From Neocallimastix lanati (nom. inval.) (lineage: Eukaryota; Neocallimastigomycota; Neocallimastigomycetes; Neocallimastigales; Neocallimastigaceae), in the NCBI GenBank assembly GCA_016946835.1, contig JACVTC010000065.1:542501-606500 (forward strand): 64,000 nt of DNA. The letters run 5' to 3'. This document shows positions 32,093 to 59,368 of the stretch, one piece after another (the stretch's first letter is position 1; each line of letters begins with the position of its first letter). Under the pieces are notes generated by a model. The model was given only the letters and a program-made list of their open reading frames with translations, ran no database searches and was not told the DNA's origin. Both the position numbers and the translations under genes were made by a program.

Positions 32093-32557
32093 TGTATTAG
32101 ATTTTGTTAATTTTCCTTTAAAAAATAATAATGAAAATAAATAAACAATAGCTAATAAAATATTTTATTTTATTATATGTTTTATTATTCCTTCTTTATT
32201 TATTTTATTATATAATTATTATCCATTATGTTATATCAAATATAATTATAAACTCTTAATATTATTATTTAATACTATTACAATTATAAACTATTCATCA
32301 CTAGTTTTTAAATATACATTTCATCAGTATATTTATATATTTAATTATTATTAATTATATCTCTATTCTAATAAACTAGTTTTTGGATTCTACATTTCTC
32401 TTATTATTTTATTATAAATCAAAGAATCCCCTTCTTAAATAAATAATTTATTAAAATATATATAATTATAAATTATTAATTCACCAATAATATTTTTATA
32501 TAAAAATTTAACTATAATATTTCATTAAAGTATAATATTTCTATAGGTCACGTATCA
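32093..32557 (+). mobile_element. LTR-like unit, family A (older copy)
   Basis: Ends GGTCACGTATCA at 32557, like the family A units at 46919 and 48264, and is followed by AAAA. The left end (about 32093, TGTATTAG) is uncertain. The body is diverged, so it is old. Confidence 0.5.
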
Positions 32558-32561
32558 AAAA

Positions 32562-33067
32562 TGATACGATATTTTATTTATGTATCTAAATTAATATTTG
32601 TTTTTGGGCAATAACAATAAGGAATTATTATAAAATAATATATTCTAATATTAAATAGAAATAACACATACAATAGTACAAAATAAAGTAATGAATATAT
32701 CTTTTTAATGTTTTCTTTATTTATTATTAATTATTAATTATTACATCAATTATTATTATTACATATATAAATATTATAATTAATTATCTCAAATATATAT
32801 ATTCATCTAATTTATAAATCAATAAATATAATAAAACATTAATATCTCTCTTTAACAATACTAAACTAAAATATAAAAAAAAATAGCTATTTATGTGAAT
32901 TAATTTATCATAAGTATAAACTTATAAATAAAAGAATTCTCCGTTTTAAATTTATTATTATAAAATTATATATATTATTATAAAATTATTACTGACCAAT
33001 AATATTTAAGTATTTCTTAAACCTAAAGAATCTACCTAAATATCATATTTATAGTGGTCACGTATCA
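32562..33067 (+). mobile_element. LTR-like unit, family A
   Basis: Starts TGATACGATATTTTATTT and ends GGTCACGTATCA. It is flanked on both sides by AAAA, giving the pattern unit-AAAA-unit-AAAA. Close relative of 46919-47391 and 48264-48729. No tRNA is seen next to this array. Confidence 0.75.
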
Positions 33068-33071
33068 AAAA

Positions 33072-33414: not shown

Positions 33415-36050
33415 GTAACGATATCAGCATCGTTGATAAAATGTAACAATTTCCTTAATTTAGAAATTGTCCTAAAAGTGGTAATTGCTTATCAAAAGTA
33501 TTTTATATGTTATTATTTATTAATTATTATCTATGATTATTTATTATTACTTATTATTATTTGTTATTATTTATTACTTTTTATTATTATTTATTATTAT
33601 TTATTATTATTTATTATTATTTATTATTATTTATTATTATTTATTATTATTTATTATTATTTCCTAGTTTAATAACTATTCTAATAATTATAAATTATTT
33701 TTATTAACAAAATTAATAATTATTTAATTATACATTAAATGAATTATCAATTTTCATATTTTATTAAATTTTTACTATTAAATTTTTATTATTAACTTTA
33801 TTTATAATAATTTGTCAAATTATATAAAATTAATGTAAATTAAAATAAGTTATCCTACTAATAATATTTAAATAAGCATGTATATATATATAGTAAAAAT
33901 TGTATAACAAAATAAAATCAATCTTAAATTCTTAACAATAAAATATTTTAATGTGTTGTTTCTCATTTATTGTGTTTAATAGATTACAAGTCTCATTGAC
34001 TCTTCTTAATAACGAATTAAATAAGAATTAAATAAATATATATATGTCTTTTAATAAGTGAAATTAATAATATTAAAAGATAATGCTGAATATTGGTCAG
34101 CGTTTATTAAAAGATAGAGCTGAATATTGTTAAATACATAAATAAATATTTTAATTTCATTATACATGATGTTAAATAAATTGGCAATACATAGATTCAA
34201 TGAACTAATTTATAATAAACATCATACTAATATGTAAGAACTATAAATTAAACCAATATTTTAATTATATTATAAATTATATTGAATGAAATGGCAATAC
34301 ATGGATTCATGGAACTAATTTGAATAAACAATATATTAATACGTAAGAATATAAATTATCCAATAAAAATATTAAACTTCATTTTTCATTTCCTCCCCAA
34401 CCAATACTTAGTAATAATAAAAAAAAAAAAAATAATAATTATTTCGAACCAATCAAAATAATTATTATATATCAAAAAAAAAAATTACAATATAATATTG
34501 AAATTAATTAAACACAATACTGAAAATAATAACATTATTCGTATAACCTTGAATTGCTCAATAATAATTTTTTGCAGCTCTTCAAATACATCTTAATAAT
34601 ATTCATTATATTTTTAATAAAATTATTTTTCTTTTTTCAAAAAATCACAACATCTAAGAAGTCAAAACAAAATGAGAAGAGGTCAAACATCAAACCAACC
34701 AACCCTTGTCAGTGAAAACGAACAACCAACTCCAAAAGGAATCAATTTTACTTATTCTGAAAATTTTAATCGGGTAGTTGAATTAACTACAGAAAACTAC
34801 CCAGATTGGAGAACTAATATTCTTTATCTACTACTGATCAATAACCTCGAAAGTTATGCCTTAACAAGAAAGCTAAAAAAACTTAGAAGAAGAGACATCA
34901 AAGATGATCCTGATGATTACTTAACTGACCAATTTGACCCAAGTCTGGTATATGACAAAGAAACGAGCCTCCTGGATATTAAAAGTGACGTTATGGTAAA
35001 ATGGATCATCATAAATAGTCTAGGTGAAGAAACAAGGAAAATTATCGCAAGCCAAGGAAAAACCGCCTTTGAAACATGGAAGACACTAGAAAAATCCTTT
35101 ACCGTTAGTCACGAGAGAAGATGTATGGAAATCAAAAAGAAATTAAATTCTCTCAAATATAACGAAGAACAAGATATAAATATATTCATAGCTACTATGC
35201 AGAACTTAATCGATGAACTCGAAAACATCGATCACGACATGGAACCTAGTACTAAAGCGGGAATATTCAATAGAGCACTCCCTGAAAACTTAAGATTCAT
35301 CAACGTATTCCAATACAAACACGATTGGAACAAACTCTGCGAATACGTGAAGAATGTTATCCCCGATATCATTTTTTTCCAATTTAAAAGAATCATTAAA
35401 ATCTGAGGAATCCACAAAACAAATATTTTTGACTACCTCAGATTTAAGTACAAATAAAAAGCACTTTTCATCCCAAAGCAAAAGAACATATAGAAATGGA
35501 AAATGTTATCTATGTAACAAATTCGGACATTATGCCAAGGAGTGTAGAAAATTCAACAAACCCATCAGATTCAATTTAATAAAAAATAAGAAATTTAAAA
35601 GTCAATCGAAAAATAATAACAAATATCACAAACTTTCAACAATTAAACAAGGATACAAACACAAAAGCTACAAGCAATTAAATTCACTCGAAAACAATAT
35701 CAATGATACCAACAATAATAACTCCTTATCAAAGGATTACAATACTGAAAACTACTCGTTTTTAGGATGCGTCATAAAAAATAATTTCAGTTCTCAGGTA
35801 ACTAATGAAATAACATCTTCTTCCCATAATGACCTTACAGCTTGGATTTTAGATTCAGGTTCCTCCTTACATTTGACAAATTCTTTAAAATACTTTACAA
35901 ATCTCTGTAACTGTAAGTAAAATATCATACTTCCTAATGGAAGTATTGTTAATTCTACCATTTCCGGCGACTTTATTGGATTTAATAATGGAAATAAAAT
36001 TACTTTGAGAAATGTACATTATGTTCCTCTTATTTTAATAAAAAAAAATT
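33415..36050 (+). mobile_element. second Ty1/copia element: 5' LTR, leader and gag-protease
   Basis: The 5' LTR runs about 33415-33988 (TGTAAC..ATTACA) and includes a TTATTA microsatellite. A leader with tandem repeats follows, then a copia gag of the UBN2 type from 34672 (NYPDWRTNILYLL, FETWKTLEKSF), a zinc knuckle CYLCNKFGHYAKEC near 35500, and a protease motif WILDSGSSLHLTN near 35845. Nothing of integrase or RT follows, so the element is incomplete with few visible breaks in the part present. A partial relative of its LTR lies at 59848. Confidence 0.85.
34070..34375 (+). repeat. tandem repeats in the copia leader
   Basis: Two copies of about 117 bp begin near 34180 and 34297, each with TGGCAATACAT-GATTCA-GAACTAATTT. 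They are preceded by a shorter doublet around TTAAAAGATA-GCTGAATATTG (34075-34135). Confidence 0.65.
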
Positions 36051-42209: not shown

Positions 42210-42571
42210 ATTATATAGTTAATTTGAATAATTGAATTTAATATAGATATGTTGTAAACATATATAAAAACATAATATAAATAAAATACACGTGACGTCA
42301 AATGTATCATTGAAATTAATTATTAATATAAACCTTATTTATTAATATTCTCAGAATTATTAGGCCTAAGATAACCCTTTAAATATTAAACAAGAATTTA
42401 TATTAATTATTAATTATTTAAATATATATATTATTTATAATTAAATAAATAATATTTTTAATTATTGAAATGTAAATAACTGAAATTGAGATTTCAATCC
42501 AGTTATTATTTCAACAAATCATAATAGTTATGAAATGGGAAACAAGATAAATTCCTATTTCATATTAAGAA

Positions 42572-43541
42572 TGATAGACTCGGGGTTGACACGTATAGAA
42601 TTAAAATCAAGCAGGGGGGACGGGTATTACCCCGCTTTGATTTTAAAAAAAAAAAAATTTTTTTTTTTTATTAAAATTTTTTTATTATTTATTAATATTA
42701 AAATTTATTTTTTTAAAGTACAAATATTTAATTTTTAAGAAATATTTACATATTTATATTTTTTTATGAATTTAAAGTATAATTATTTGTTTATAATTTA
42801 AGTAATTTTATAGAATTATTGAATTAATTTTATATCAATAATTCATTTTTGTTTTATTTTTTATAAATATAATAATATAATATTCAAATATAATTTAATT
42901 GAAAATAATTATAAAATAAATATATAGAAAATAGTTTTACTATTTTCTTTGATATTTTTAAGTTAAATAAATTGTTTTTAAAGATTAATATAATAAATTT
43001 AATAATCTTTAATTATTTTAAATAATAATTGTAATTATTTTCAAAATAAAATAAAATTTTTATAATATTTAATTAATAAATTTGATAATATTTAAATAAT
43101 AAATTTTTATAATAATTAATAATTTTTAATAATAATTTTTAATAATAAATTTAATTAATAATCTTAATAATTTTATAATAATATTTAATAGTTATAATAA
43201 ATAAATTTTTATAATAATATTTAATAATTTTAATAATTTTATAATATTAATAGTTTATAATAATTTTTATAATAATATTTAATTAATAATTTTAATAATT
43301 TAGTATCTTAAAAGTGTAATTTTAATATTTACAATTGTATTTTAATATATAAATATATTTAAATATATAACAATAAAGTAATTAATTAAAATTGATTTAC
43401 ATCATTTACAAGTTAAAATTAATTTATATCAAAATAAATTAAATTTTATTATTAAGTTTAGGTTATCAAGAATATAGGAAAGTACAATTTAGTAAAGAAT
43501 TATTAATAATAAAATAAAGGTTATTAATTCATTCTTTACCA
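42572..43541 (+). mobile_element. LTR-like unit, family C
   Basis: TGATAGACTCGGGGTTGACAC..TTCATTCTTTACCA. Near its left end lies a GC-rich hairpin (AAAATCAAGC..GCTTTGATTTT, 42602-42646). It is present inverted at 54528-55542. AGAA precedes it and GGAAC follows. Confidence 0.7.
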
Positions 43542-43546
43542 GGAAC

Positions 43547-44377
43547 TGACAAACGATTCTATTATCTTAATTTGAAGTTATTACTTCAAAAGTGATAATA
43601 GATGTATCAAGTTTGATATAAAATTTAATATAAATGAATTTGTTTTATTATTATTAATAATTAAGTTATTATTATTCTAGCTTAACACTGAATTGTTATT
43701 AATTTTTCAAAATTATACTTTTCTTTTGTGTTTAGAATTAATTTTTATTATTATATTTATTAATTTTTATTATTATATTTATTAATTTTTATTATTATTT
43801 ATTAATTTTTATTATTATTTATTAATTTTTATTATTATTTATTAATTTTTATTATTATTTATTAATTTTTATTATTATTTATTAATTTTTATTATTATTT
43901 ATTAATATAATATTTGGTAATTTTTTTTTTATTACATTTCTAATAACAACAAGAAATTAATTTTATAAAATATTTACAAGTATTTATATTTTTACAATAA
44001 TTTAAAGTATTTACAATTTTTAATAATAAAACAATTAAGAATAATTATATTTATAAAAATAAACAATAAAATAAACAAATAAACAATTAATACAAGAATT
44101 ATTATAAACAAAGAATTCAAAATAATAAAAAAAGAGAAAATTGTTTACAAACTATTTACTTTTAATTAAAAAGAGAAATTAATTAACATTAGTATTTTAT
44201 TATTTTAAAAATTAAAATAGAATTAAAGTATAATTTCGAGTTTTAGAATTTAATTAAAATAAATTTTTTTATTATGATTTTAATTTCAAATTTTAATTTA
44301 TTAATTTATTGTTGAATAGGTTAGATATTATTCAAGCTTTCTAATAATTTTATACGTAAGAATTCCAATCTGTATCA
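43547..44377 (+). mobile_element. LTR-like unit, family F
   Basis: TGACAAACGATTC..AATCTGTATCA, between GGAAC and GAA. Contains about ten TTTATTAATTTTTATTATTA microsatellite units (43740-43910). Confidence 0.6.
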
Positions 44378-44380
44378 GAA

Positions 44381-45089
44381 TGTAAGTGTTGACTAATTAA
44401 TTAGTCACACTTAACCAAATATAATATAAATATTATATTTATTTTTATTATTAATTAAGATTTAAATAATTTTACAATAAAATTAATACTTAATATTATT
44501 TAATATACTATAATTTTAATAATTGTTATTAAATAATAAAATAAAAATAATTATTAATTTATAAAATTAATTTTTTAACTAATTAATAATTAATTATTAT
44601 GAAATATAAACAATATCTTTAATTAATAACCAATTTCAATTTAATATAAATAATTAATCATTTGATTTATCATTAACAATAATACGTGATTAATTATATT
44701 AAAACATTTAATATTAATATAATTAATATTAAATTAATATAAAATTAATTAATAATTATAAACTTAAAACATCAAAAAAAATAATTTCATAAAATATTGG
44801 TTAATTGCCAATATTAAATAATATTAAATAATATTAAATAATATTAAATAATAAATAATTAATTTATTTTATCTTTCAGGTTTTTTCTCATAATCTTTTT
44901 CCTGAAAGAATAACTTTTAAGATTATGAACAAAAAAATTATAAATAACCTTGATTTTTTCTATAAAATAAAAATCAAGAGTTATTATTTAGAAAATAATA
45001 TATAATAAAATTTCTTAATAAACTCGAAATATTTTTTAACAATTATTGTTATTTTTATAAAAGTTAAGTATTAATTTTGTGTTATTACA
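44381..45089 (-). mobile_element. solo LTR of family X (X0)
   Basis: TGTAAGTGTTG..GTTATTACA with CAGAA duplicated on both sides (44376-44380, 45090-45094). The structured core is read on the - strand, with CATAATCTT/AAGATTATG and CTTTCAGG/CCTGAAAG (44890-44927). It was inserted exactly at the junction between two array units. Confidence 0.75.
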
Positions 45090-45095
45090 CAGAAC

Positions 45096-46229
45096 TGATA
45101 CGGGCTGGGGTTGAAACATTAAGATATTCAAAACAAAAAAAATAAATATTAACACATAACTATAAAAATAAATTTGGAAACAAGAAAAAAAATTAAATTT
45201 TAAAATATTCTTTATTTAAATTTAAAATTAAAATTATTTGTTCCAAGTATTAAAAAGGAAGAAATTTATTCTTCTTTTTATACTTTTATTTTAATACATT
45301 TTATTTATTATTAATATATTCTTTATAAAAAAAACTATTATAACTATTTTATTTTAATTTTTAACTATTATTTTAAATTATTTTTTTAAAAAAAAAAAAA
45401 ATAACATTTATTAAATTAAAATATAAAAAATTAATTTAGAGATTGTATCACGAAGGGCATTCCGGGCGGTAGCTTCTTCTTGATATTGTTTTTCAGAAAG
45501 AGAATTATACAGAATTGATATTTTCTGTATTTTAGATCATTTTTTTATTATTGAAATTCTGTATTTTAGTTCATTTTTATTTTTAATAAAGATTTAATTT
45601 ATTTTTGATTTTTGATTTATTTTTAGTTTATTTCAAAGGTTTAGAAAATATTATACAGAAACTTATAATTCTGTATTTTATATCAAATATTTATTGAAAT
45701 AGGTTTTTATTATTCTTAATATAAAAATAAGAATTAATAATGATTTAAATATTATATAATTTTTAATAAGAATATTTAATAATAATTTTTATTATATTTG
45801 ATATTAATAAAAGATTTTAATAAGAATATTTAATAATAATTTTTATTATATTTGATATTAATAAAAGAATTTAATAATAATATTTAATAATAATTTTTAT
45901 TATATTTGATATTAATAAAAGATTTTAATAAGAATATTTAATAATAATTTTTATTATATTTGATATTAATAAAAGAAATTTATAAGAATATTTAATAATA
46001 ATTTTTATTATATTTAATATTAATAAAAGAATTTTATAAGAATATTTAATAATAATTTTTATTATATTTAATATTAATAAAAGAAATTTATAAGAGTATT
46101 TAATAATAATTTTTATTATATTTGATATTAATAAAAGATTTTAATAAGAATATTTAATAATAATTTTATTTTATTATTATTAAGAGTATTTAATAGGAAA
46201 TACAAGGTATTTAGTGACACCCCGTATCA
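45096..46229 (+). mobile_element. LTR-like unit, family B
   Basis: TGATACGGGCTGGGGTTGAAA..GTGACACCCCGTATCA. Contains a strikingly GC-rich conserved island (about 45440-45500) and eight or so tandem copies of a unit of about 54 bp (45740-46190). An inverted, larger relative is 56551-58444. GAAC precedes it. Confidence 0.75.
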
Positions 46230-46232
46230 GAA

Positions 46233-46912
46233 TGTAATAATCTATTTATAATATACTAACTATAACTAGATTATTAATATTTTAAGATATAAAAATTTAT
46301 ACTTAACTTTATATAGAGTTTATTATAAACACTAAATATTGAAATAACCAAAAAGACTTTATTTTCTTTTAATTTATTATATAGCATTATATAATAATAA
46401 CTCTAATTTCTTTAATCAAAGAAATTTGAGTTCTTTTATACTTTTTTATTTATAATTATTTTAATAGATGAAATTATTAAATAGATGTAATTATTAAATA
46501 AATAAAATAGATAAGATAAATTTAACAAATCAAATAAAGGTATCTAATCTTAACAAATTGATATTCAGGAAAAGATTAGTAGAAAAACCTGAATAACTTC
46601 GATTAATATTCTAATATATTAATCATCGTATTAATTAATAAAAACCCAATCATAATAATATTGGGGAAAAAATTAATTAACCGATTACTAAAATCTTATT
46701 AATTATCAACTAATTGAAATAATAAAATATAAATAATATTTTTAAGTAATTAATACATTACAACAAATTTGTTTACATTATTTTTCAATATATTAATTTG
46801 GATAAATTAATATATTTTTTACATGTTAATAAATATTGAAATATAAATGAAATATAAATTAATTAAATAAGAAGATAGATTATTTTATAAGAAATAAATT
46901 TATATTCTTACG
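46233..46912 (+). mobile_element. solo LTR of family X (X2)
   Basis: TGTAATAATC..ATTCTTACG with CAGAA on both sides (46228-46232, 46913-46917), opposite in orientation to X1. The structured core starts at CTAATCTT 46544-46551 and uses different but still complementary stem sequences (TTCAGG/CCTGAA, GATTAATAT/ATATTAATC, CCCAAT/ATTGGG). Confidence 0.8.
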
Positions 46913-46918
46913 CAGAAC

Positions 46919-47391
46919 TGATACGATATTTTATTTATGTATCTAAATTAATATTTATTTATGGGCAATGACAATAAGGAATTATGACAAAATAATATAT
47001 TCTAATATTAAATAGAAATAACACATACAATAATACAAAATAAAGTAATAAATATATCTCTTTAATGTACTCTTTATTTATTATTAATTATTAATTATTA
47101 ATTATTACATCAATTATTATTATTACTCTCTTATATAAATATTATAATTAATTATCTCAAATATACACAATATCTCTTTTTAACTATACTAAAATAAAAT
47201 ATAAAAATAGCTATTTATGTGAATTAATTTATCATAAGTATATACTTATAAATAAAAGAATTCTTCGTTTACTAATTATTATTCTAAAATTATATATATT
47301 ATTCTAAAATTATTATTGACCAATAATATTTAAGTATTTCTTTAACCTAAAGAATCTACCTAAATACCATTTTTATAGGTGTCACGTATCA
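46919..47391 (+). mobile_element. LTR-like unit, family A (young)
   Basis: 473 bp, TGATACGATATTTTATTT..GTGTCACGTATCA, preceded by GAAC. About 98 % identical by eye to 48264-48729, so both are young. Confidence 0.85.
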
Positions 47392-47394
47392 GAA

Positions 47395-48257
47395 TGTAAG
47401 AATCTATAATTATTTGCTAACAAATAATTATATTTTCTTAGTTAAGTTATTATAACTATAACTTTATTTAATTACATATAATATTTATTAAATTTATTTA
47501 ATTTAATTTTAAATATTCATTAATTTAACAAAATTTATTTAATTAATTTTAAATAATATATTTACAATATGTTAAATTCTCTACTGTAACTAATGTATTT
47601 TGTATTGTATTCTATTCTGTATTTTATAATGTATTCTGTATTTTATTAACTATTTAATTTTATATTTTTAATATAAGGATAAATTATATGATCGAAATAT
47701 CTTTTATTATTTTATTCTTTTATTTTCGATCATTAGATTAGATTGGAAAATCGGTTAATTAAGATTTTTTCCAATTACTTTTTAGAAGTAATCGGTTTTA
47801 CTTAATTAATGCGATGATCGATATGGATAGAATATCGATCGAAAACTTATCTAGGTTTTTCTATCTAATCTTTTCCTAGATAAGAGATTTGTTAAGATTA
47901 GAAAACCCTTTCTTATTTAACCTTATTTTCATAAAAAAATATAAATAAGGCTCTTGAGTTCTCTTTGAGAAATCAAGAGTTATTATTATAAAAAACATAG
48001 TTATAATAGTAACATTTTTATATTTTTAACTTTAATAAATTAATAAAAATATTTTATTCAAAAACATATTTTTAAGATCAATTTATACAAACAATTCTTC
48101 TCTTACATTTTGTGTTATTATTATAATTAATTTTATAATAAACTCTACATTAAAGGTAAAAAAATTTATTTTATTTTATTTTCTCAACTTAATGAATTAG
48201 TCGTTAAGTTGTAGTTAATAATTCTATTTTGAGTTAGTTCTTAATAGAATTATTACA
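47395..48257 (-). mobile_element. solo LTR of family X (X1)
   Basis: 863 bp, TGTAAGAATC..GAATTATTACA with CAGAA on both sides (47390-47394, 48258-48262). Without it the junction reads CGTATCA-GAAC-TGATACG. The structured core lies on the - strand (about 47700-47905), with a TATAAATAAGG and the 5' hairpin at 47940-47985. Confidence 0.85.
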
Positions 48258-48263
48258 CAGAAC

Positions 48264-48729
48264 TGATACGATATTTTATTTATGTATCTAAATTAATATT
48301 TATTTATGGGCAATGACAATAAGGAATTATGACAAAATAATATATTCTAATATTAAATAGAAATAACACATACAATAATACAAAATAAAGTAATAAATAT
48401 ATCTTTTTAATGTACTCTTTATTTATTATTAATTATTAATTATTACATCAATTATTATTATTACTCTCTTACATAAATATTATAATTAATTATCTCAAAT
48501 ATACATAATATCTCTTTTTAACTATACTAAAATAAAATATAAAAATAGCTATTTATGTGAATTAATTTATCATAAGTATATACTTATAAATAAAAGAATT
48601 CTCCGTTTAACAATTATTATTCTAAAATTATATATATTATTATAAAATTATTATTGACCAATAATATTTAAGTATTTCTTTAACCTAAAGAATCTACCTA
48701 AATACCATTTTTATAGTGGTCACGTATCA
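48264..48729 (+). mobile_element. LTR-like unit, family A, next to tRNA-Asn
   Basis: 466 bp, TGATACGATATT..GGTCACGTATCA. GAAC lies on its left (completed across X1) and GAAC at 48730-48733 on its right. Its last base is 14 nt upstream of the mature tRNA-Asn. Youngest layer of the array. Confidence 0.88.
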
Positions 48730-48743
48730 GAACTAATGAAATG

Positions 48744-48817
48744 GCTCTTATGGTGCAATTGGCTAGCGCATTTGGCTGTTAACCGAGAGGTTGGTGGTTC
48801 AAGCCCACCTAGGAGCG
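48744..48817 (+). tRNA. tRNA-Asn (GTT)
   Basis: A complete cloverleaf: acceptor GCTCTTA/TAGGAGC (one G-U) with discriminator G, D arm with AATTGGCTA, anticodon stem TTTGG/CCGAG with loop CTGTTAA (GTT), T arm GGTGG-TTCAAGC-CCACC. No intron. Only TTT follows, so transcription may read through into the tRNA-Arg-like gene 14 nt downstream. It is the anchor of the LTR array to its left. Confidence 0.95.
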
Positions 48818-48831
48818 TTTCATACTTAAAT

Positions 48832-48905
48832 GCTTGTGTAGCTTAATCGGATAGGGCGTTAGACTTCTAATCTGAAGATTGTGGGTTCAAGTCCCGCCAC
48901 TTGAG
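48832..48905 (+). tRNA. tRNA-Arg (TCT)-like, imperfect acceptor stem
   Basis: D arm GCTT-AATCGGATA-GGGC, anticodon stem TTAGA/TCTGA with loop CTTCTAA (TCT), T arm GTGGG-TTCAAGT-CCCGC are all good. The acceptor (GCTTGTG against CACTTGA) has three mismatches, so this may be a decaying gene or need editing or tolerance. TTTTT follows at about 48908, a fitting Pol III terminator for a two-tRNA transcript. Confidence 0.75.
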
Positions 48906-49359
48906 TGTTTTTATATTTTATAAAAAATATTCAAGTACTTCTCCGAGTACCTATTTTTTTCCCCCAATGATATGAACATTTTTTTTTTTTTTTTTTTAAG
49001 TACTTAATTATTATTCGTGACATTAAATTATTATCTCAATATTAGTAGATTTCAAAATGAATTTCAGTAATCGATCAATTGAAATTAAATTAAAATAAGC
49101 GAAAGAGTTAATAGCTTGAAAAATTAATGAAATCTCTAATTAGTTCATCAATTTGTGTTTATTTTAGTGTTCTGGAGGGAGTACTGGTGTATATCATAAT
49201 TAAAATATATATTAATAGAAAAAGTCTTACTAGAGATACAAATTACTTGAAGGAAAATAAATTAAAGTTATATTAAATAAAATTAATAAAATTAAGTAAT
49301 TATAGCAATTGAATTTTTTTTTGAAATGAGTTCTATAAATTTTAAATAATTAAAAAAGG
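48906..49359. other. spacer 3' of the tRNA pair
   Basis: A Pol III terminator-like T-run, then AT-rich DNA. No LTR unit is seen on this side of the tRNAs, in contrast to the upstream side. Confidence 0.45.
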
Positions 49360-50315
49360 AACTCAGGATATTGAGAAAATATCCTGAGATAATTTAGATA
49401 TTAATACTTGGAAGTTTGACTAAGAGCTACAGATAGAACTCGAAGATATTGTAGACTCCAAGTTTATATTTTATACTTGTGTTTTGACCTCGATAGGTGA
49501 AACAAAGAAAATCATTCACGAATTAGTTGGTAATAAGAATTTTAAAAATGATAATGATAATGTAATGATAATATAATGATAATGATAATAATAATGATGA
49601 TGATGATGATGATAAAGAAGAATATAATGAATATGGAGAAAGAAATGTTTCGCCTGTAACGGTTTATCCTTCCTCTGACCGAATAGTAAAAGTTTTAGAA
49701 AACTTTTATAGAATTAGAAAATATCAAAATAATTTATTACAAGAGCAATAAGTTCTTGGAATTAAGAGGAATGAAACAATTAGGGAATTTAAAATTAGAT
49801 ATAAAACCTTTTAAAATTGAATAAAAAGAAAAGACTTCAAATATGTGTTTTTGACCATAAAGACTCCATTTAAAATAATGTTGAAGCCTGGAAATATTTA
49901 ACCTTATTTGATGACATTCCTTAATTGAAAACCTTTAGAATTGTTGAAAAAGAAGATAAATTATATGGTTAATAATCAACGATGATATTCGTCAACCTAT
50001 TCACTTCCTACAAGAATTTCTTCTCTTAATATTAAGAATAAAGTAATTTTAATTGTCCAATAAAAATTTTGAACAAAAATCAAAAATTAAAAAAATGGAA
50101 GATAGTGATATGGAAGAATTAACAGGAAAAATGAAGAATTTAACAATTAAGGCTTGTTATTTATGTAAAGAACTCGATCATTATCAAAATCAATGTTCAA
50201 AATTGAAGGAAATTGTTGATGATGAAAATGAAATAAAAAATAATAAACGTTTATATTGAATCATGGAATAAGAAGCTCTACCATTGTAACGAATGTTAAG
50301 GTTTAGAGAAATTAG

Positions 50316-50395
50316 AATAATGGTCTAGTGGTTAGTTAAATTGACCATGACCAATACTGTATGGGTTTGACTCTGACTTTGACCCATTTTACAAA
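50316..50395 (+). other. tRNA-derived relic (A- and B-box-like)
   Basis: TGGTCTAGTGGTTAG is identical to a tRNA D-arm/A-box of the Glu/Asp type, and GGGTTTGACTCTGACTTTGACCC resembles a T arm. The part between lacks a convincing anticodon arm. It could be a dead tRNA or the head of a SINE. Confidence 0.4.
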
Positions 50396-50587
50396 ATTAT
50401 TATTTTAAACATTTATTAATAATATTTTTTATAATATTCTTTCCGCAACAAATTATAAAATTTCAAGGATTTTCTCGGTTAATTTATTTAATCAGAAATT
50501 ATTAGAAAATCCTAATTTTATAAATTCTATTATTACTTTTATCATATGATTCATTTTTTCAATTTAAATCTTATTCTAAAAACTTTT

Positions 50588-50630
50588 TATACTTTTTCCT
50601 TCAAGAAACTATTTTTCAGGAAAAAGTATA
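50588..50630. other. 13-bp perfect inverted repeat with TATAAA
   Basis: TATACTTTTTCCT (50588-50600) and AGGAAAAAGTATA (50618-50630) around a 17-nt loop, running into TATAAATATGAG. It resembles the TATA-plus-hairpin arrangement seen in the LTR families of the arrays and may mark a decayed LTR at about 50400-50830. Confidence 0.4.
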
Positions 50631-51600
50631 AATATGAGTGATTTCTTCAACAAAATATTTTTTCCTTGTTTTTTATATTTTTTAAAAGATCAATATATAA
50701 GTAATATCTTAGTTATAGTTAATTAATATTTTAATAAAATTCTTATTAATAAAACAAATATTTTATATAACAAATTTTTTTCATTTATATTACTTATATA
50801 TTTATATTGTCGACCTGTTGGGTCAACAAAGTTTTTGGTTTAATATTATTAATAATTAATTCCCTATAATAATATTAAGCACAAAAACGTTATACCCATA
50901 TTCAATAAAGCAGCTTCAATTGAGTATCAAAAAGAAATCAAATAACCTTGTCTTTCAAATCCTTCTAATGTTGAAGAAACTCCTTCAAATGAATTTTTGA
51001 TTAATAAAAAAAAGTTGACTAATTAGTAGGAGTAACGTAATGTAAAATTTATAATGTTGATAATAATGATAAAGGTAATGCGGAGAAACAAAATTATAAA
51101 TCATTAAATATAATCCTTAATCTATAATAACACCTGCATTACGAAAACAGAAAGAGCGAGAATTGGAGGAAAATAATAATAGTAATAAAATTTTAAAACA
51201 AATAAAACTATCTATCCTAGCTCAACCACTAATTAAAAAAGAATAAGATATTGAAATGCAAATTCGTGATAAGAAAGAGCTAGTAATAATAATACTAATA
51301 ATAATTCCTTAATAAATTATGAAGTTAATTAAAATAATGAAAATATCAATAAAGAAAATAGTAAAAATATAATTAAAGGAAATAATAAAATTATAAAAAA
51401 AGAATAAAAAATATAAAAAAAGAAAAGAATAAATTAATTAAGTTAACAGAGGTGTTAAATAGTGAAAATAAAGATACACAAAAAAAATGCAAAAATTTAT
51501 TGAGGCAAAAGAAAATTTGATAAACTCGAAAATCAGTAATTTCCTCTGTTGTTTTTCCTAAATTATATTCGTTAGAAAACAACCGGTCTAAGATATTTAT

Positions 51601-52726
51601 TTATTTAGGTTTCAAGTCTCTAGATTACGTATTTCACAAGGTATACAAATTTAAAAGAAATTTTAAAATAAATTTGAATTGTAATTTTAAAATTAAATTT
51701 TATTTTTAATAAATTAATAAATTATTCATGAACAAAAAAAAAATAATTTTTATTTTTATAATATTAAACTTAAATATAATTATTAATAAGCATTTTAATA
51801 TTAAATAGTCATTATTTTCCGCTTTATTTTCTGCTTTAAAATATCGATGTTAAGAATACTAAAAAAAAATTATTAAAATCGTTAAATTTATAAAATATAT
51901 TAAATTTATTTTATTTTATATTTAATTATATCTTTTTGGTATATTATTTTAAAAAATTAAATATATTATTAATTCATTAATTAATGCTTTTAAAAATTAA
52001 GTTTAAAATGTTTATTGCATGTACTAAATTTATTATTAAATTTGAAAATATATAAGCATGTAAAAAGAATTATATTTTAATCCTTAGTAGAATTATTAAA
52101 TTATTATTTATACTAAATATTTAAAATTAATTATTTAGATAAAATAAAAATTTTATAAATCATTAATTTAAATAATAATAAATATATCAAATGTCTTGAC
52201 TTATTCCTAAATAATAAGAATATTAATATTAATTAGTTTGTTATTTTATATTTTATTTCTTTTCTATTTTTTATTCTTTATTTTTTTTAATAATATTAGT
52301 TAAAAATCTGTTATTAGAATTTTATTCATTATTAGTATATATTTATCAAATAATACGATAATTGATATATATATATATAAATTATAGATCTAAACTAGTT
52401 TTTTCTTCTAATCATTTTCTAAAAATGATATCTATTAAGATTAAAAAGTCAAGTTAATTTTACAAATTTTATATAAATATCCCTTTGATTTCTCTTTAAA
52501 AATCAAAAAGAACAATTTAATAATTAATTGAAAATTTATTAATAAAATTAATTAAGTAAATATTTTTATTAATTATTAAATTATAATTATTAGAAGTATA
52601 ATTAATTATTAATAAAATTTAATAATCAGTAATAATAGTAGATAATTATTTGTAATTTTTAAAATTATGACCTTTATTTGAAAAAATATCATTAAATATA
52701 AAATTTATCTTGCCTTTAAATTTAAT
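51601..52726. other. AT-rich spacer with a decayed X-family core
   Basis: No gene. At about 52395-52500 the - strand retains TTAATCTTAAT, GATTAGAAGAAAAAACTAG and a GATTTTTAAAGAGAAATC hairpin, consistent with a much-decayed family X LTR. Confidence 0.35.
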
Positions 52727-52735
52727 ATTACAAAC

Positions 52736-53335
52736 GTATGTGTGGCGTTTCTAAATATGGCTTATAAATAAAAATTCATAAATTAAAGCACTACATTTTT
52801 AATTTTTTTAAATAATTATAAAAAATTAAATAAATAAAATAGAAAAAAAAAATATTGGGATATTATTTTTTTTTTTTTAATTTTCTAATACATTCTTTAT
52901 TTATAATTGTTACTTTAAAATAAAAAAAGAAATAAATAAACAATAAATATTTAAATTAAATAAATAAATAATAAATTATAAAAAAAATAAACATATTTTA
53001 TTTTTAATTATCAAAAAAAAAAAAAGAAAAAAGTCCAAAAGTTGCTACAAATGAAACAAATAGAGGAATAAAACATATTATTATAAATAAAAAATATAAT
53101 TTTTATCTTTAAATTTAAGTATTATTAAATATTTATTATTATTTTAACTAAAAATATTAAAATATATCTTTAAAAATAAATATTTTATTATTATTTTGGA
53201 AAAAAAATACTGAAATATTTCTTTATCTATTTAATATAATTTAAGTCACTTTTAAATAAAGGATTTATTTAAGTACACCACTTTTTTATATATAGCCACA
53301 TTCCAAAAAATAACATTCTGAAATGCAACACTCCC
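52736..53335. mobile_element. non-autonomous MULE (600 bp)
   Basis: Left end GTATGTGTGGCGTTTC; right end GAAATGCAACACTCCC, which matches the right end of the MULE at 40217-42209 (GAAATGCAATACTCCC). Perfect 9-bp duplication ATTACAAAC at 52727-52735 and 53336-53344. The interior is A/T only with no transposase, so it would depend on a full MULE. Confidence 0.85.
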
Positions 53336-53344
53336 ATTACAAAC

Positions 53345-54440
53345 CTAACATGAATTTTAAGTTAAACCAAAATAACAATTTGATAATTTACTATATATAA
53401 TTAAATAGAATTCAATTCTAATAATAACCTAAAAACATGAAAAATAAAATAAATTTTAATTTATCAAATCTATATTGAAAAACATTTTATAAAAAATAAT
53501 TAAATATTTAATTAATAATTTATTATTAAGAATTTTATCTTTATATAACAAAAAAATTACACTTTGATTTTGTGAATGATTCTTTAATCCAATGTTCTAT
53601 TTTAGGAATATCTAATACAGGAAAATTAACCTCCAAAATAATAATGGTATGGTATTTGTTCTTAATTATCATATATAAAATGAAATTTTTCTAATTTTTT
53701 TTTTCTATCATCATATTTCTTAATAATAAAACTTTAAAGAGGGATGAAATTAAAGTTTTCATGTTAATTTTAAATTTATTTTAGAATTAACTAAATATTA
53801 CAATACTGAAAAAAAAAATAAACTAATGATACCATAAAAATTAAAGTAAAAAAATTTAAATGATAAGGAATTAACATCTGATTCTTTAAGAATTAATAGA
53901 ACTTTAAAGTCTATTCAATAGTCTTTTTTTTTTTTTTTTTTTTTTTTTTTGATTATTATTTTTACTTATTTTATTATTTTGTATGAATTTTAATTTATTT
54001 TAATTCTTCTATATATGTATTTAATTAAAATCGAGTAATATTTTAATGAATGAAAATCGAAATTAATAATTGTTATATTTGTTATTGAAACTTTGTAACA
54101 TAATAGATTTAAAAAGATCATATAAATTTTTTTGTGAATTTTTTGATTCGCATAAAATAAATTTTTATAATTTATTATATTAAAACATATTTAATTTTTT
54201 TGTATTATTTAAATTTTTTTATTTTAATACAGAATATTATTATCTCTAATTTCATATTAGATTAATACAATACCCTTTTTATATCAAAAAATTTTTTATT
54301 ATTAAATTTTATTATAAACAAATATAATTAATTATTTCATTTTAAAATAAAATATTTTATTTCGTAATTAAATTTATTTTCTATTAATGATAAAAACATC
54401 ATTTTATTAATAAATATATTAAAAATTTTTATAAAATTAA
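53345..54440. other. AT-rich spacer between MULE and tRNA-Val
   Basis: Mostly A/T runs, including a 30-T tract near 53923-53950. One possible relic exon on the - strand is listed separately. Confidence 0.45.
53557..53661 (-). pseudogene. unrecognised coding-like fragment
   Basis: On the - strand, after an AG, a frame reads NKYHTIIILEVNFPVLDIPKI and continues EHWIKESFTKSKCN. Composition is more protein-like than its surroundings, but there is no family match and no neighbouring exon, so it may be a relic or chance. Confidence 0.25.
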
Positions 54441-54513
54441 TACCCGAACCCGGGTTCGAACCGGAGACCTTTTGCGTGTAAAGCAAACGTGATAACCACT
54501 ACACTATTCGGAT
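54441..54513 (-). tRNA. tRNA-Val (TAC)
   Basis: On the - strand: acceptor ATCCGAA/TTCGGGT with discriminator A, D arm GTGT-AGTGGTTATC-AC, anticodon stem TTTGC/GCAAA with loop TTTACAC (TAC), T arm TCCGG-TTCGAAC-CCGGG. No intron. TTTT follows within a few bases 3'. Its 5' side (higher coordinates) is the anchor of the second LTR array. Confidence 0.95.
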
Positions 54514-54527
54514 ATTATTGTAATTAT

Positions 54528-55542
54528 TGGTAAAGAATGAATTAATAACCTTTATTTTATTATTAATAATTCTTTACTAAATTGTACTTTCCTATATTCT
54601 TGATAACCTAAACTTAATAATAAAATTTAATTTATTTTGATATAAATTAATTTTAACTTGTAAATAATGTAAATAAATTTTAATTAATTATTTTATTGTT
54701 ATATTATTAAATATATGTATATTAAAATACAATTGTAAATATTAAAATTATACTTTTAAGATACTAAACTATTAAAACTATTAATTAAATATTATTATAA
54801 AAATTATTATAAAATTATTAAAATTATTAATTAAATATTATTCTAAAAATTATTATAAATTATTAATATTATAAAATTATTAAAATTATTAAATATTATT
54901 ATAAAAATTTATATATTATAACTATTAAATATTATTATAAAATTATTAAGATTATTAATTAAATTTATTATTAAAAATTATTATTAAAAATTTTTACTTA
55001 TTATAAAAATTATTATTTAAATATTATCAAATTTATTAATTAAATATTATAAAAATTTTATTTTATTTTGAAAATAATTACAAGTATTATTTAAAATAAT
55101 TAAAGATTATTAAATTTATTATATTAATCTTTAAAAATAATTTATTTAACTTAAAAATATCGAAGAAAATAGTAAAAACTATTTTCTATATATTTATTTT
55201 ATAATTATTTTTAATTAAATTATATTTGAATATTATATTATTATATTTATAAAAATTAAAACAAAAATGAATTATTGATATAAAATTAATTCAATAATTC
55301 TATAAAATTACTTAAATTATAAACAAATAATTATACCTTAAATTCAAAAAAAATTATAAATATTGTAAATATTTCTTAAAAATTAAATATGTGTACTTTA
55401 AATAATAAAATTTTATATTAATAAAAAAAAATAAATAACTTTTAATAAAGAATTATTTTTTTTTATTTAAAATCAAAGCAGGGTAATACCCGTCCCCCCC
55501 TGCTTGATTTTAAATATCTAAGTGTCAACCCCGAGTCTACCA
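54528..55542 (-). mobile_element. LTR-like unit, family C, next to tRNA-Val
   Basis: Inverted relative of 42572-43541 (TGGTAAAGAATG..GTGTCAACCCCGAGTCTACCA). TTAT on both sides (54524-54527, 55543-55546). Its edge is 14 nt from the tRNA 5' end, the same offset as at tRNA-Asn. The GC-rich hairpin is at 55468-55513. Confidence 0.85.
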
Positions 55543-55547
55543 TTATT

Positions 55548-56546
55548 TGTAATAATTTAATTAAAAAATTATAATTAAATTATTAATCATTAATATTAGC
55601 TCTAACTGCTAATATTAAAGGTTTAGAAAAGAATCATACTTACCTATGGTTCTTTCTAATTATCGAGTTTATTATAACGAATTATAATAGACGAAACACT
55701 AAAATTGATAAGGAAAAGTTTTAATTATAAAATTTGTTTTATTAAAATAATTTGTTTTATTATTTATTAAAAATTTTAAATGTTAAAACTTATTGTTATT
55801 ATTATTATATTATAATTGTTATAATAATAACTCTTGATTTCTCAAAGAGAACTCAAGAGCCTTATTTATACTTTTTTGTCAAAATAAGGTTAAAATCAAA
55901 AGGGGTTCTAATCTTAACAAATCTCTTATCTAGGAAAAGACTAGAAGAAAAACCTAGATAAGTTTTTTGATCGATATTCTATCCATATCGATCATCGCGT
56001 TAATTAAGTAAAACCGATTACTTTTAAGAAGTAATTGGAAAAACCTTAATTAACCGATTACTTAATCTAATATAATGATCGAAAATAAAAGAATGAAATA
56101 ATGAAAATTATTTCGATCATAAAATTTAAAATTTAATCTATTTAGTTCTATTTTATAGAACTTTACATAAAAAATATAAAACAATACATTAATAATAAAA
56201 TACATGATTAATACAATACAGAATACATGATAGAATACAGAATACATGATAAAATACAGAATAGTGTTTTAGTTTATGATTTAATAAGTGAGAGAAAACT
56301 AAAACTAATAAATTTAATAATTAAGTGAATAATTAAATAAATTTAATATTATTTTAAATGTATAAAAATTATTTGATTAAATAAATTTTTAATATTAAAC
56401 TAAATAAAATTTTAATATATAATTAAATAAATTATTAATTATAATTAATTGTATAAATGAAATATGAGTTAAATAAAAGTTATATTAATTATAACCTAAC
56501 TAAGAAAATATAATTATTTTGTTAAAAATAATTATAGATTCTTACA
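55548..56546 (+). mobile_element. solo LTR of family X (X')
   Basis: TGTAATAATTT..AGATTCTTACA, 999 bp, TTATT duplicated on both sides (55543-55547, 56547-56551). Inserted at the TTAT junction between two array units. Contains the best-preserved structured core, listed separately. Confidence 0.85.
55831..56120 (+). ncRNA. covarying hairpin/pseudoknot core of LTR family X
   Basis: Six pairings are visible. Hairpin 0: CTCTTGATTTCTC 55831 with GAGAACTCAAGAG 55847. Pseudoknot: CTAATCTT 55908 with AAGACTAG 55937 (one mismatch here; perfect in other copies). P1: TTATCTAGG 55926 with CCTAGATAA 55953. P2: GATCGATAT with ATATCGATC 55985. P3: TTAATTAAG 56000 with CTTAATTAA 56045. P4: CCGATTACTT 56014 with AAGTAATTGG 56029. 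A last stem is TGATCGAAAATAA 56076 with TTATTTCGATCA 56108. Pseudoknot and P1 interleave as an H-type knot with the A-rich loop AAGAAAAA. Other X copies keep the loops but change both sides of the stems. No hammerhead, HDV or group I core is recognised. The strand is uncertain; part of a retroelement LTR. Confidence 0.7.
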
Positions 56547-56550
56547 TTAT

Positions 56551-58444
56551 TGATACGGGGTGTCACTAAATACCTTGTATTTCCTATTAAATACTCTTAA
56601 TTGTTAAGATAATAACTGAATTTCAATTCAATTTCAATTTCGATAATTCAGTTATTTGAATTTCAATATTAATAAATAATAATAATATAATAATTATTAT
56701 TAAATTAACTTTATTAAAATATTTAGGAATTAGTCTAGGCCAACTAATTTCTAAATATTATTAACATATTGAAATTAATATATATTAAATAATGTAAACA
56801 CGTGATTGTCATATTAAATTAATTTCTACATATTATATTTTAATTATAAAATATAATATTTAGCTATATTAGATTCTTATATTTTATTTATATTAAATAT
56901 TTTTATTATTATCTAACTTTATATTATCAATATCAAACTTATATTAATATTATTTACATATTCATATTAATAATTAATATTTTAATAATTAATTATTTTA
57001 TATAAATACATGTTTAAATCTTTTGATTAATCCTTTGTAGGATTATTGTAATTTAAATTATAGTAATAATTATATAAAATAATAATGTAATAAAATATTA
57101 TTAAGATTAAATAAAATTTATATTTTAAATAAAAACTTGATTATAAAATTTACTAATAACAATATGTTTTAAACAAGAGTAAATTTTTTGACATTAATAA
57201 TAATAAAATAAAATTATTATTAAATATTCTTATTAAAATCTTTTATTAATATCAAATATAATAAAAATTATTATTAAATATTCTTATAAATTTCCTTTTA
57301 TTAATATTAAATATAATAAAAATTATTATTAAATATATTCTTATAAATTTCTTTTATTAATATTAAATATAATAAAAATTATTATTAAATATTCTTATAA
57401 ATTTCCTTTTATTAATATTAAATATAATAAAAATTATTAATAAATATTCTTATAAATTTCTTTTATTAATATTAAATATAATAAAAATTATTAATAAATA
57501 TTCTTATAAATTTCTTTTATTAATATTAAATATAATAAAAATTATTATTAAATATTCTTATAAATTTCTTTTATTAATATTAAATATAATAAAAATTATT
57601 ATTAAATATTCTTATAAATTTCTTTTATTAATATTAAATATAATAAAAATTATTATTAAATATTCTTATAAAATTCTTTTATTAATATCAAATATAATAA
57701 AAATTATTAAATATTCTAATAAAAATCTTTTATTAACATTAAATATAATAAAAATTATTATTAAATATTCTTATTAAAAATTATATAATATTTAAATCAT
57801 TATTAATTCTTATTTTTATATTAAGAATAATAAAAACCTATTTCAATAAATATTTGATATAAAATACAGAATTATAAGTTTCTGTATAATATTTTATAAA
57901 CCTTTGAAATAAACTAAAAATAAATCAAAAATCAAAAATAAATTAAATCTTTATTAAAAATAAAAATGAACTAAAATACAGAATTTCAATAATAAAAAAA
58001 TGATCTAAAATACAGAAAATATCAATTCTGTATAATTCTCTCTCTGAAAAACAATATCAAGAAGAAGCTACCGCCCGGAATGCCCTTCGTGATACAAGCT
58101 CCAAATTAATTTTTTATATTTTAATTTAATAAATGTTATTTTTTTTTTTTTAAAAAATAATTTAAAATAATAGTTAAAAATTAAAATAAAATAGTTATAA
58201 TAGTTTTTTTTTTATAAAGAATATATTAATAATAAATAAAATGTATTAAAATAAAAGTATAAAAAGAAGAATAAATTTCTTTCTTTTTAATAATTGGAAC
58301 AAATAATTTTAATTTTAAATTTAAATAAAGAATATTTTAAAATTTAATTTTTTTCTTCTTTCCAAATTTATTTTTATAGTTATGTGTTAATATTTATTTT
58401 TTTTTGTTTTGAATATCTTAGTGTTTCAACCCCAGCCCGTATCA
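56551..58444 (-). mobile_element. LTR-like unit, family B (inverted), with nested LTR
   Basis: TGATACGGGGTGTCAC..AACCCCAGCCCGTATCA, TTAT at both sides (56547-56550, 58445-58448). Contains about eleven tandem units of about 54 bp (57195-57790) and the GC-rich island (58030-58095), both also in 45096-46229. A 593-bp LTR is nested at its left. Confidence 0.8.
56602..57194. mobile_element. solo copia-type LTR nested in a family B unit
   Basis: TGTTAAGATAATAAC..TTTTTTGACA with TTAAT on both sides (56597-56601, 57195-57199). The ends match those of the young copia LTRs at 25059 and 28438. The family B unit at 45096-46229 shows the uninterrupted sequence near 46185, so the insertion came after the two B copies separated. 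Confidence 0.8.
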
Positions 58445-58448
58445 TTAT

Positions 58449-59368
58449 TGTTAAGGAATGAATAAATAATGTTAATTTTATTATTTTTCATAAAAATAAC
58501 TTAACCACTAAAATTAAATTATTTATTTCCTTACTTGGAGAACTTTCTTATGTTCTATTACTGCCAAATTATTACTAATATTAAATTTATTATTATTAAT
58601 ATAAATTCTTTATCAATATCAATACTTTATTATTAAAATTAATACTATATTATTAATATCAATATTATTATCAATATCTAGTTTTATTAATACTATTTAT
58701 TCATTCAATATTTATTATTAAAGAAAATTTTATTTTACAAATATTACTAATACATATTATTTATTATTAATAAAAATTAATATAATTAATAATGATTTAA
58801 AAATATTTTACTTAAATCCATGATCCTTGTTATTAAAATTAGTAATACTTCCTTCCAAAATACACCCTATTTATAATAAGATTAATAATAGATAATAATC
58901 TAAAATACTTTTATTTAAAAATATTATTAAATTAAATAATACTCTATTACTAATAGTTCTGTAAAAGTAATAAAATTATTTTTAAAATATATTATCACTA
59001 CAATTAATAATAAATAGTTTAGAATCTAATAATATATAATAATTATTTATTATAATAGTATAGATTATGAATTAATAATTTAAATACAATTCAAACATGT
59101 AACTCTAAAATAATCTAAAGAAATGGCTTGACTATTTCTAACAATAAAAAAAAATATAAATAGATGAGAAAATTGTTTTTGAGAAAAATAATCTTGAAAA
59201 AAATATAATCTTATTGAAGAAATTAAATTATTTTTTAGTTTTTAATTGAATAATTTTTATTAAATATATAAATAAAATATTTTAATAAAAGATATATTTT
59301 AATTTTTAATTTTTTTTATTTTAGTGTTTATTTCTATATTTATTATTATTCTGTCCCGAACCTCAACA
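58449..59368 (-). mobile_element. LTR-like unit, family D (inverted)
   Basis: TGTTAAGGAATGAAT..CCCGAACCTCAACA; read inverted it starts TGTTGAGGTTCGGG like the unit at 37121. TTAT on its left, TTTT on its right. Confidence 0.6.

Follow-up and report, generated by a model that had tools for sequence, protein, structure and literature searches.

In this work we describe a 64,000-nucleotide (nt) stretch of the genome of the anaerobic fungus Neocallimastix lanati (contig JACVTC010000065.1, positions 542,501 to 606,500; the whole stretch is called the window below), in which two transfer RNA (tRNA) genes carry arrays of long terminal repeat (LTR) units on their upstream side. The genome holding the window comprises 199 Mb in 762 contigs, and the window itself has 83.9% A+T. 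Our analysis gives us high confidence that many LTR families of this fungus integrate at one position, which is set by the RNA polymerase III (Pol III) initiation complex. The two tRNA genes and the features next to them are the following:

48264-48729, minus strand: LTR unit A2, solo LTR of the gag-only family A (orientation taken from the complete copy L129)
48730-48743, plus strand: 14-nt spacer from the LTR to tRNA-Asn, its first 4 bases (GAAC) being the target-site duplication
48744-48817, plus strand: tRNA-Asn(GTT), target gene (ARAGORN, Rfam)
48831-48906, plus strand: tRNA-Arg(TCT), second gene of the Asn-Arg pair (ARAGORN; Rfam 48836-48900)
54441-54513, minus strand: tRNA-Val(TAC), second target gene (Rfam; ARAGORN)
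54514-54527, minus strand: 14-nt spacer from tRNA-Val to LTR unit C, with ATAA (towards the tRNA) beside the LTR as the duplication

For A2, the minus strand gives the direction in which the element itself is read, which leads away from the tRNA. This LTR is 466 base pairs (bp) long (48264-48729), has the ends TGATACG...CGTATCA and is flanked by GAAC at 48260-48263 and 48730-48733; tRNA-Asn sits 14 nt past its last base. tRNA-Val is placed at 54441-54513 by Rfam and at 54440-54514 by ARAGORN, and the gap from the Rfam mature 5' end (54513) to the edge of the family C LTR (54528) is 14 nt. The first-pass annotation had proposed that both arrays stop 14 nt upstream of their tRNA, and the two pairs of positions (48729/48744 and 54528/54513) agree with it. 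The repetition of the spacer bases that it had reported was found as well: the junctions have GAAC or GAA in the Asn array and TTAT (ATAA towards the tRNA) in the Val array.

The same offset was found genome-wide. A search for CGTATCA with the tRNA B box (GGTTCRANNCC) 45-75 nt after it found 31 places, and 0 with the pattern reversed, with ~1.1 expected from base composition (an expectation computed with the full 2,328 B-box places, which include many that are not tRNAs; the reversed B box has 322). Thirty of these loci were read, and ARAGORN called a tRNA in 27 and none in the other 3. The gap between the LTR end and the tRNA was 14 nt in 15 cases, 15 nt in nine, and 13, 16 and 22 nt in one each, which means 13-16 nt for 26 of the 27 tRNAs; the gap ends are those set by ARAGORN and may be one base off, and some of the 27 are duplicate contigs, at least three pairs among the CGTATCA loci resembling such duplicates. 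The genes include those for Asn, Val, Cys, Gly, Thr, Ala, Ser, Leu and Pro tRNAs. The end of unit C, CTTTACCA, gave a similar picture: together with the B box it was found at 46 places (reversed control 0; ~0.45 expected), and with our own list of start words gene starts were placed at 40 of them (31 tRNAs and 9 tRNA-like repeats), the other 6 strings being dropped as unplaceable. The gap was 13-17 nt at 36 of these 40 starts (27/31 tRNAs and 9/9 tRNA-like repeats), distributed as 14 nt in 19, 15 in eight, 16 in seven, and 13 and 17 in one each, and the four values out of this range (2, 2, 3 and 23) were all at tRNAs. When the B box was shifted 45 nt further out, a far control made with the CTTTACCA end alone, 1 match remained, compared with 46. 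A distance check of the kind proposed in the first-pass annotation, made with B-box patterns and samples in place of a full tRNA list, gave each of the two ends a sharp peak at 14-16 nt.

A set of 50 tRNA genes was also picked blind to the upstream side: 27 exact tRNA-Val genes found by a 34-base word (the window's own tRNA-Val included), 20 of 63 listed tRNA-family hits, and 3 tRNAs from the first 30 B-box loci (those read of 100 listed B-box places). A doubtful intron-containing call (L067) and the 'tRNA-???' calls of L040, L043 and L047 were left out before counting, second genes of tRNA pairs were excluded, and the set retains some mutual duplicates (L079/L080, L077/L083, L089/L097). Under a strict rule, by which another locus must share at least 80 bp at 88% identity or more and matches reaching to within 5 nt of the tRNA are excluded as duplicates, a repeat boundary was found 8-20 nt upstream in 33 of the 50 genes (18/27 tRNA-Val, 12/20 and 3/3). 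The bin at 10-19 nt upstream held 32 of the 50, every other 10-nt bin holding at most 6, and in the downstream control a boundary lay 10-19 nt away in 1 of 30 tRNAs.

Both arrays in the window are layered. From the outside inwards, the Asn array consists of eight units (C, F, B1, D, B2, A1, B3 and A2) followed by the tRNA, and the junctions in the same order are GGAAC, GAA, GAAC, GAA, GAAC, GAA, GAAC and GAAC. The units besides A2 and those of the Val array are listed here:

42571-43541, plus strand: LTR unit C, outermost recognised in the Asn array (BLAST 42567-43541; junction CTTTACCA-GGAAC-TGAC)
43547-44377, plus strand: LTR unit F (TGACAAAC...CTGTATCA; junction search, homology)
44381-45091, plus strand: unit B1 (TGTAAG...TTACA plus CA of its 5-bp duplication; by its ends, with one 194-nt match elsewhere)
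45096-46229, plus strand: LTR unit D (TGATACGGG...CCCCGTATCA; 96% over 1,094 nt to the Val-array unit)
46233-46914, plus strand: unit B2 (TGTAATAATC...; by its ends, with no close relative in the sequences compared, best 76%)
46919-47391, minus strand: LTR unit A1 (96.6% identical to A2, same orientation)
47395-48259, plus strand: LTR unit B3 (TGTAAGAATC...TTACA plus CA; 98.8% to a copy elsewhere)
54528-55542, no strand assigned: LTR unit C beside tRNA-Val (TGGTAAAG... read outwards; BLAST, homology)
55548-56546, no strand assigned: LTR unit B of the Val array, AATAA on both sides
56551-58444, no strand assigned: LTR unit D of the Val array
58445-58448, no strand assigned: fourth use of TTAT; on its outer side a further TG-starting unit begins at 58449

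The junction search looked for the spacer words, which alone do not prove each boundary; units A, C, D, F and those of the Val array are also bounded by homology, and B1 and B2 mainly by their ends. The outer edge of unit C in the Asn array was set by our reading of the sequence, and this unit is 90.6% identical to the unit C beside tRNA-Val. Unit F was found elsewhere 13-14 nt before tRNA-Thr, tRNA-Arg and tRNA-Val. A further junction match in the Val array, at 57803, falls inside unit D and was dropped as a chance match. Unit D also contains short tandem repeats (57193-57780 and 45709-46196), apparently in different numbers in each array.

The order of insertion can be read from the duplications. 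A-type units have a 4-bp duplication (GAAC) and B-type units one of 5 bp (CAGAA), which begins with the final two bases of the older LTR; because a B-type duplication borrows these two bases, the outer unit was present first. Units D and F are compatible with a 4-bp duplication, allowing for later B insertions, and the Val array shows the same pattern, with ATAA/AATAA, for units D, B and C. The reuse of the same bases and the order of the duplications indicate that new copies insert on the gene side of the units already present. Identity to the nearest relative, from the gene outwards in the Asn array, was 99.6% (A2), 98.8% (B3), 97.0% (A1), 76% (B2, no close hit), 93-96% (D), 98.5% (B1, over 194 nt), 92-98% (F) and 93.9% (C), and in the Val array 94.6% (C), 99.1% (B; 100% over 275 nt) and 95.9% (D). 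As these identity-based ages are mixed, the insertion order rests on the duplications and not on divergence.

The first-pass annotation had deduced that the fungus hosts one Pol III-targeted LTR family. Targeting stands, but a single family does not, because at least five LTR types occur in the window (A, B, C, D and F) and another one, E, elsewhere. Units A, C, D, F and E share at most A+T-rich patches of ~73-77% identity. The B units have common ends (TGTAA...TTACA) more than a common sequence, B3 being 87% identical to the Val-array B over 409 nt and B1 and B2 matching neither well, so that 'B' is a type and may hold several families. The duplications are of 4 bp for A, C and E (seen directly) and for D and F (from the array order), and of 5 bp for B. 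At tRNAs, a single orientation was found for A (9 distinct sites, L126 being counted and duplicates merged), D (4) and F (3), and both orientations for B3/Val-B and E; a reversed family A copy would be caught by the CGTATCA pattern, since both ends of the element read CGTATCA. Elsewhere in the window, a Ty1/copia-type pol (RVT_2, rve) lies at 25602-27740, within the stretch 25602-28357, and gag/zinc-knuckle frames lie at 34672-35920.

A complete copy of element E adjoins a tRNA-Ala at 14 nt. Its LTRs (786-787 bp, 99.75% identical) start with TA instead of TG, ACAA flanks it on both sides, its primer site matches the 3' end of tRNA-Ala plus CCA in 17 of 17 positions, and a G-rich tract, GGGGGCATCT, precedes the 3' LTR. 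The gag frame has a zinc-knuckle match slightly under the Pfam cut-off, and pol contains, in order, RVT_1, RT_RNaseH, Integrase_H2C2 and rve (Pfam). This domain order, together with the LTRs, the primer site, the G-rich tract and the duplication, makes E a Ty3/gypsy element (Metaviridae), an assignment that covers E alone, as families A, B, C, D and F yielded no pol. The left neighbour of E ends in GTACCA right before ACAA, so E too looks like part of a stack. Ty3 was the top-scoring solved pol for the E piece. The integrase piece searched has 399 residues, 4 short of the stop, and its alignment with Ty3 runs up to residue 392; the E integrase ends 11 residues past the aligned part, and the Ty3 chain continues for 109. 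Moreover, 42 of 47 aligned relatives reach the same C-terminal end and none of the 47 exceeds the query by more than 12 residues, and the E integrase thus appears, judged by sequence, to lack the tail that holds the chromodomain 'ruler' of Ty3. Relatives of the E pol include proteins labelled Orpsp1_1 (P0025, P0086, P0099), a label that we take to be that of the Orpinomyces/Pecoramyces C1A genome, and a scan of viral contigs with the E integrase found no relative.

Family A is of a different kind. Its complete copy, L129, lies 14 nt before a tRNA-Leu and has two 466-bp LTRs around an interior of 1,969 bp. The interior has a primer-site-like TGG sequence at 4 nt from the LTR on the tRNA side, one 481-codon frame with a CCHC motif, which we read as gag, and no pol. 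The 5' LTR faces the tRNA, so the element is read away from the gene. This frame matched no Pfam family above the cut-off, and neither did the gag-like frames from the CGTATCA loci that were submitted. In the fungus's own genome, a search in which 89 of 20,544 first-look candidates were scored listed 90 matches to it, the first 47 being 88-100% identical and 40 of these 47 having no stop. A gag-like frame, recognised by resemblance, lies upstream in 12 of the 30 CGTATCA loci and is read outwards in all 12. The family A primer site had no good match among the sampled tRNAs (best 10/14). In the window, 32546-33071 contains in a row an A-type LTR end, AAAA, a family A LTR (87%) and AAAA, with no Pol III gene found nearby. 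In L116, a sequence with an A-box-like word and a T run, which had no Rfam match, begins 14 nt after a family A end.

The position of the LTRs and their stacking are direct observations, and a mechanism can be proposed that would account for both. Insertion would occur ~14-16 nt before the mature 5' end of tRNAs and, at one 5S rRNA gene, 8 nt before its 5' end, with the integrase probably docking on TFIIIB or a neighbour in the complex, by analogy with Ty3. Family A, which encodes a gag-like protein only, may be integrated by the enzymes of a related element, and the solo LTRs would arise through recombination between LTRs.

The case with 5S rRNA is the LTR type of L029 (99.5% over 415 bp), which occurs 14 nt before a tRNA-Thr and 8 nt before one 5S rRNA gene. 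If tRNA transcripts are assumed to start ~6 nt before the mature end, both insertions are ~8 nt from the start, which points, in this one case, to the initiation complex and not the tRNA body as the reference.

Other explanations have to be considered. It is very unlikely that selection alone produced the pattern, with random insertions surviving only at a harmless position before tRNAs. One study (PMC5006619) explains tRNA-gene targeting elsewhere as damage avoidance in compact genomes; however, in a 199-Mb genome, with 83.9% A+T in the window, neutral space should be ample. Survival alone also does too little when the peak is a few nt wide and the same four bases are reused in one array, and copies or LTR pairs 99.6-99.75% identical at the same position call for placement. 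We give just as little weight to a Ty1-type mechanism, with upstream insertion by an integrase that binds Pol III directly and with an exact offset that marks no more than the innermost hit. The Ty1/copia-type pol and gag frames of the window would fit it, but Ty1 insertions spread over ~1 kb according to the table of a review, in contrast to the reuse of a site a few nt wide in this fungus, and the pol found at a target is of the Ty3/gypsy type. In fact, no such ~1-kb upstream window was found for CTTTACCA (1 match 45 nt further out against 46).

Less probable still is a reading of CGTATCA, CTTTACCA and similar words as a promoter element conserved upstream of tRNA genes and not as transposon ends. 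Their near-fixed position and the resemblance of A+T-rich ends to TATA-like DNA would be expected from such an element, but the words close repeats of 466 to ~1,900 bp (A, C, D and F), flanking duplications accompany A, C and E, the same place is occupied by different types with different ends, and both LTRs of the complete family A elements close with the same end. Equally improbable is segmental duplication of a tRNA gene together with its LTR, the offset being inherited once: some pairs indeed resemble duplicates or copies made in assembly (L011/L022, L021/L023, L028/L030, L079/L080, L077/L083, L089/L097), yet the same LTR precedes different tRNA types with differing spacer letters, and related tRNA-Val copies with a near-identical spacer have different LTRs (L104/L105, L016/L094).

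Several observations do weigh against targeting by the Pol III initiation complex. Such an LTR end was found at 1 of the 8 5S genes read (of 9 listed) and at none of 6 listed U6 genes (4 of them over the family cut-off). Of the 7 negative 5S flanks, 5 share one flank and the other 2 belong to low-scoring or partial genes. In the blind set, 17 of 50 flanks fail the strict rule, perhaps partly from the few comparison sequences; by eye, many flanks failing it end in TATCA, TTACA or TACCA near the same place, and these were not counted. Within family A, the LTR of L003, 15 nt before a tRNA-Ser, has no matching flanks, the duplication at L031 is of 5 bp instead of the usual 4 and its neighbour has no Rfam match, and the LTR at 32562-33067 has no tRNA or other Rfam hit nearby. 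Finally, of the 13 informative family A flanks (of 16), only 1 is directly at a tRNA and 1 is unclear, and in the remaining 11 a further TG-starting sequence follows 3-5 nt away.

Targeting of Pol III genes by Ty3/gypsy-like elements is known. Ty3 of Saccharomyces cerevisiae is guided by TFIIIB to 1-4 bp from the Pol III start, and the tail of its integrase is, according to PMC8632968, a chromodomain that contacts Brf1 and is described as a 'ruler'. The elements described here resemble Ty3 in the Ty3/gypsy pol (E), in the single position before Pol III genes and in the use of both orientations (a B family and E). They differ from it in the E integrase, apparently without the chromodomain tail, in the 4-bp duplications (A and E), in the many families per site and in the layered arrays; the distances found here (14-16 nt from mature tRNAs, 8 nt from one 5S 5' end) are measured from gene ends and not from mapped starts. 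DGLT-A of Dictyostelium is described in PMC5006619 as inserting 13-33 bp (mean 15 bp) before mature tRNAs, as being without a chromodomain and as having solo LTRs in 11 of 20 D. discoideum copies. Compared by position and domain make-up, our elements fall within 13-33 bp, and E keeps its position without a chromodomain, as reported for DGLT-A in that source; the host is different, and many LTR types and gag-only elements occur here. According to PMC4600332, the Ty3/gypsy element Tj1 of Schizosaccharomyces japonicus has its insertion sites immediately upstream of tRNA genes and other genes transcribed by Pol III and a fixed orientation there; 5S is named in the review with the table of Pol III-targeted elements. 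Family A shares the fixed orientation (9 distinct sites); unlike Tj1, which is oriented like its target gene, it points away, and the Val-array B/B3 type and E insert both ways. Tj1 is moreover described as self-primed, in contrast to the tRNA-Ala primer site of E (17/17). With respect to gag-only elements, TR-GAG elements of plants are non-autonomous LTR elements with gag only, like family A. We know of no Pol III targeting by TR-GAG elements.

The table of Pol III-targeted elements in the review comprises yeasts and Dictyostelium only. The first-pass annotation knew of no description of such targeting in anaerobic fungi, and none was found in the titles and abstracts of open-access papers (preprints and most subscription journals lying outside this scope), nor in passages of two of these papers. 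The phylum appears to be new for this behaviour, which comes here with many families per site, ordered stacks, a gag-only family with fixed orientation and a chromodomain-free integrase. If this is true, an early-diverging fungal phylum joins the few hosts with near single-base Pol III targeting. An integrase that hits one fixed position although it is free of the chromodomain to which the ruler role is ascribed in Ty3 would make the ruler question testable, arrays whose duplications show the order of insertion would be a natural record of transposition at single sites, and targeting may mark tRNA-like repeats that still assemble Pol III factors. A wider proposal, which we hold to be evenly balanced, is that LTR families in anaerobic fungi form a guild with a single common landing site, which an integrase free of a chromodomain would read. 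Most tRNA genes would then bear a stack of insertions ordered in time, the upstream DNA covered by TFIIIB at most tRNA genes would now be transposon sequence, and gag-only parasites of these elements would have gained a fixed orientation.

Three kinds of repeats were observed near LTR ends. A tRNA-like repeat starting GTAACTATGG has A- and B-box-like words and no tRNA call, with LTR ends in front of it in L012, L017 and 6 CTTTACCA places (e.g. C11:575850; gap 14-16 nt in those 6); it is possibly transcribed by Pol III. Another one, GCCATGTTGG..., was called 'tRNA-???' in the B-box loci L040, L043 and L047 and has LTR ends 15-17 nt before it at C31:298275, C89:289574 and C741:347996. The third, CAGGTTYTATCC..., has a B box and lies near LTR ends in L031 (no Rfam match there), C423:1179166 and C522:1009455.

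With regard to the tRNA genes themselves, contig C555:170732-399007 carries 34 of the 63 scored tRNA-family hits, partly ~540 nt apart, and the equally scored hits outside this contig are tRNA-Arg(TCT). Close pairs of tRNA-Asn and tRNA-Arg(TCT) genes, 13-14 nt apart, are present at many places (window 48744-48906, L069-L072, L074, L078, L081, L086 and L087), and Cys-Gly tRNA pairs also occur.

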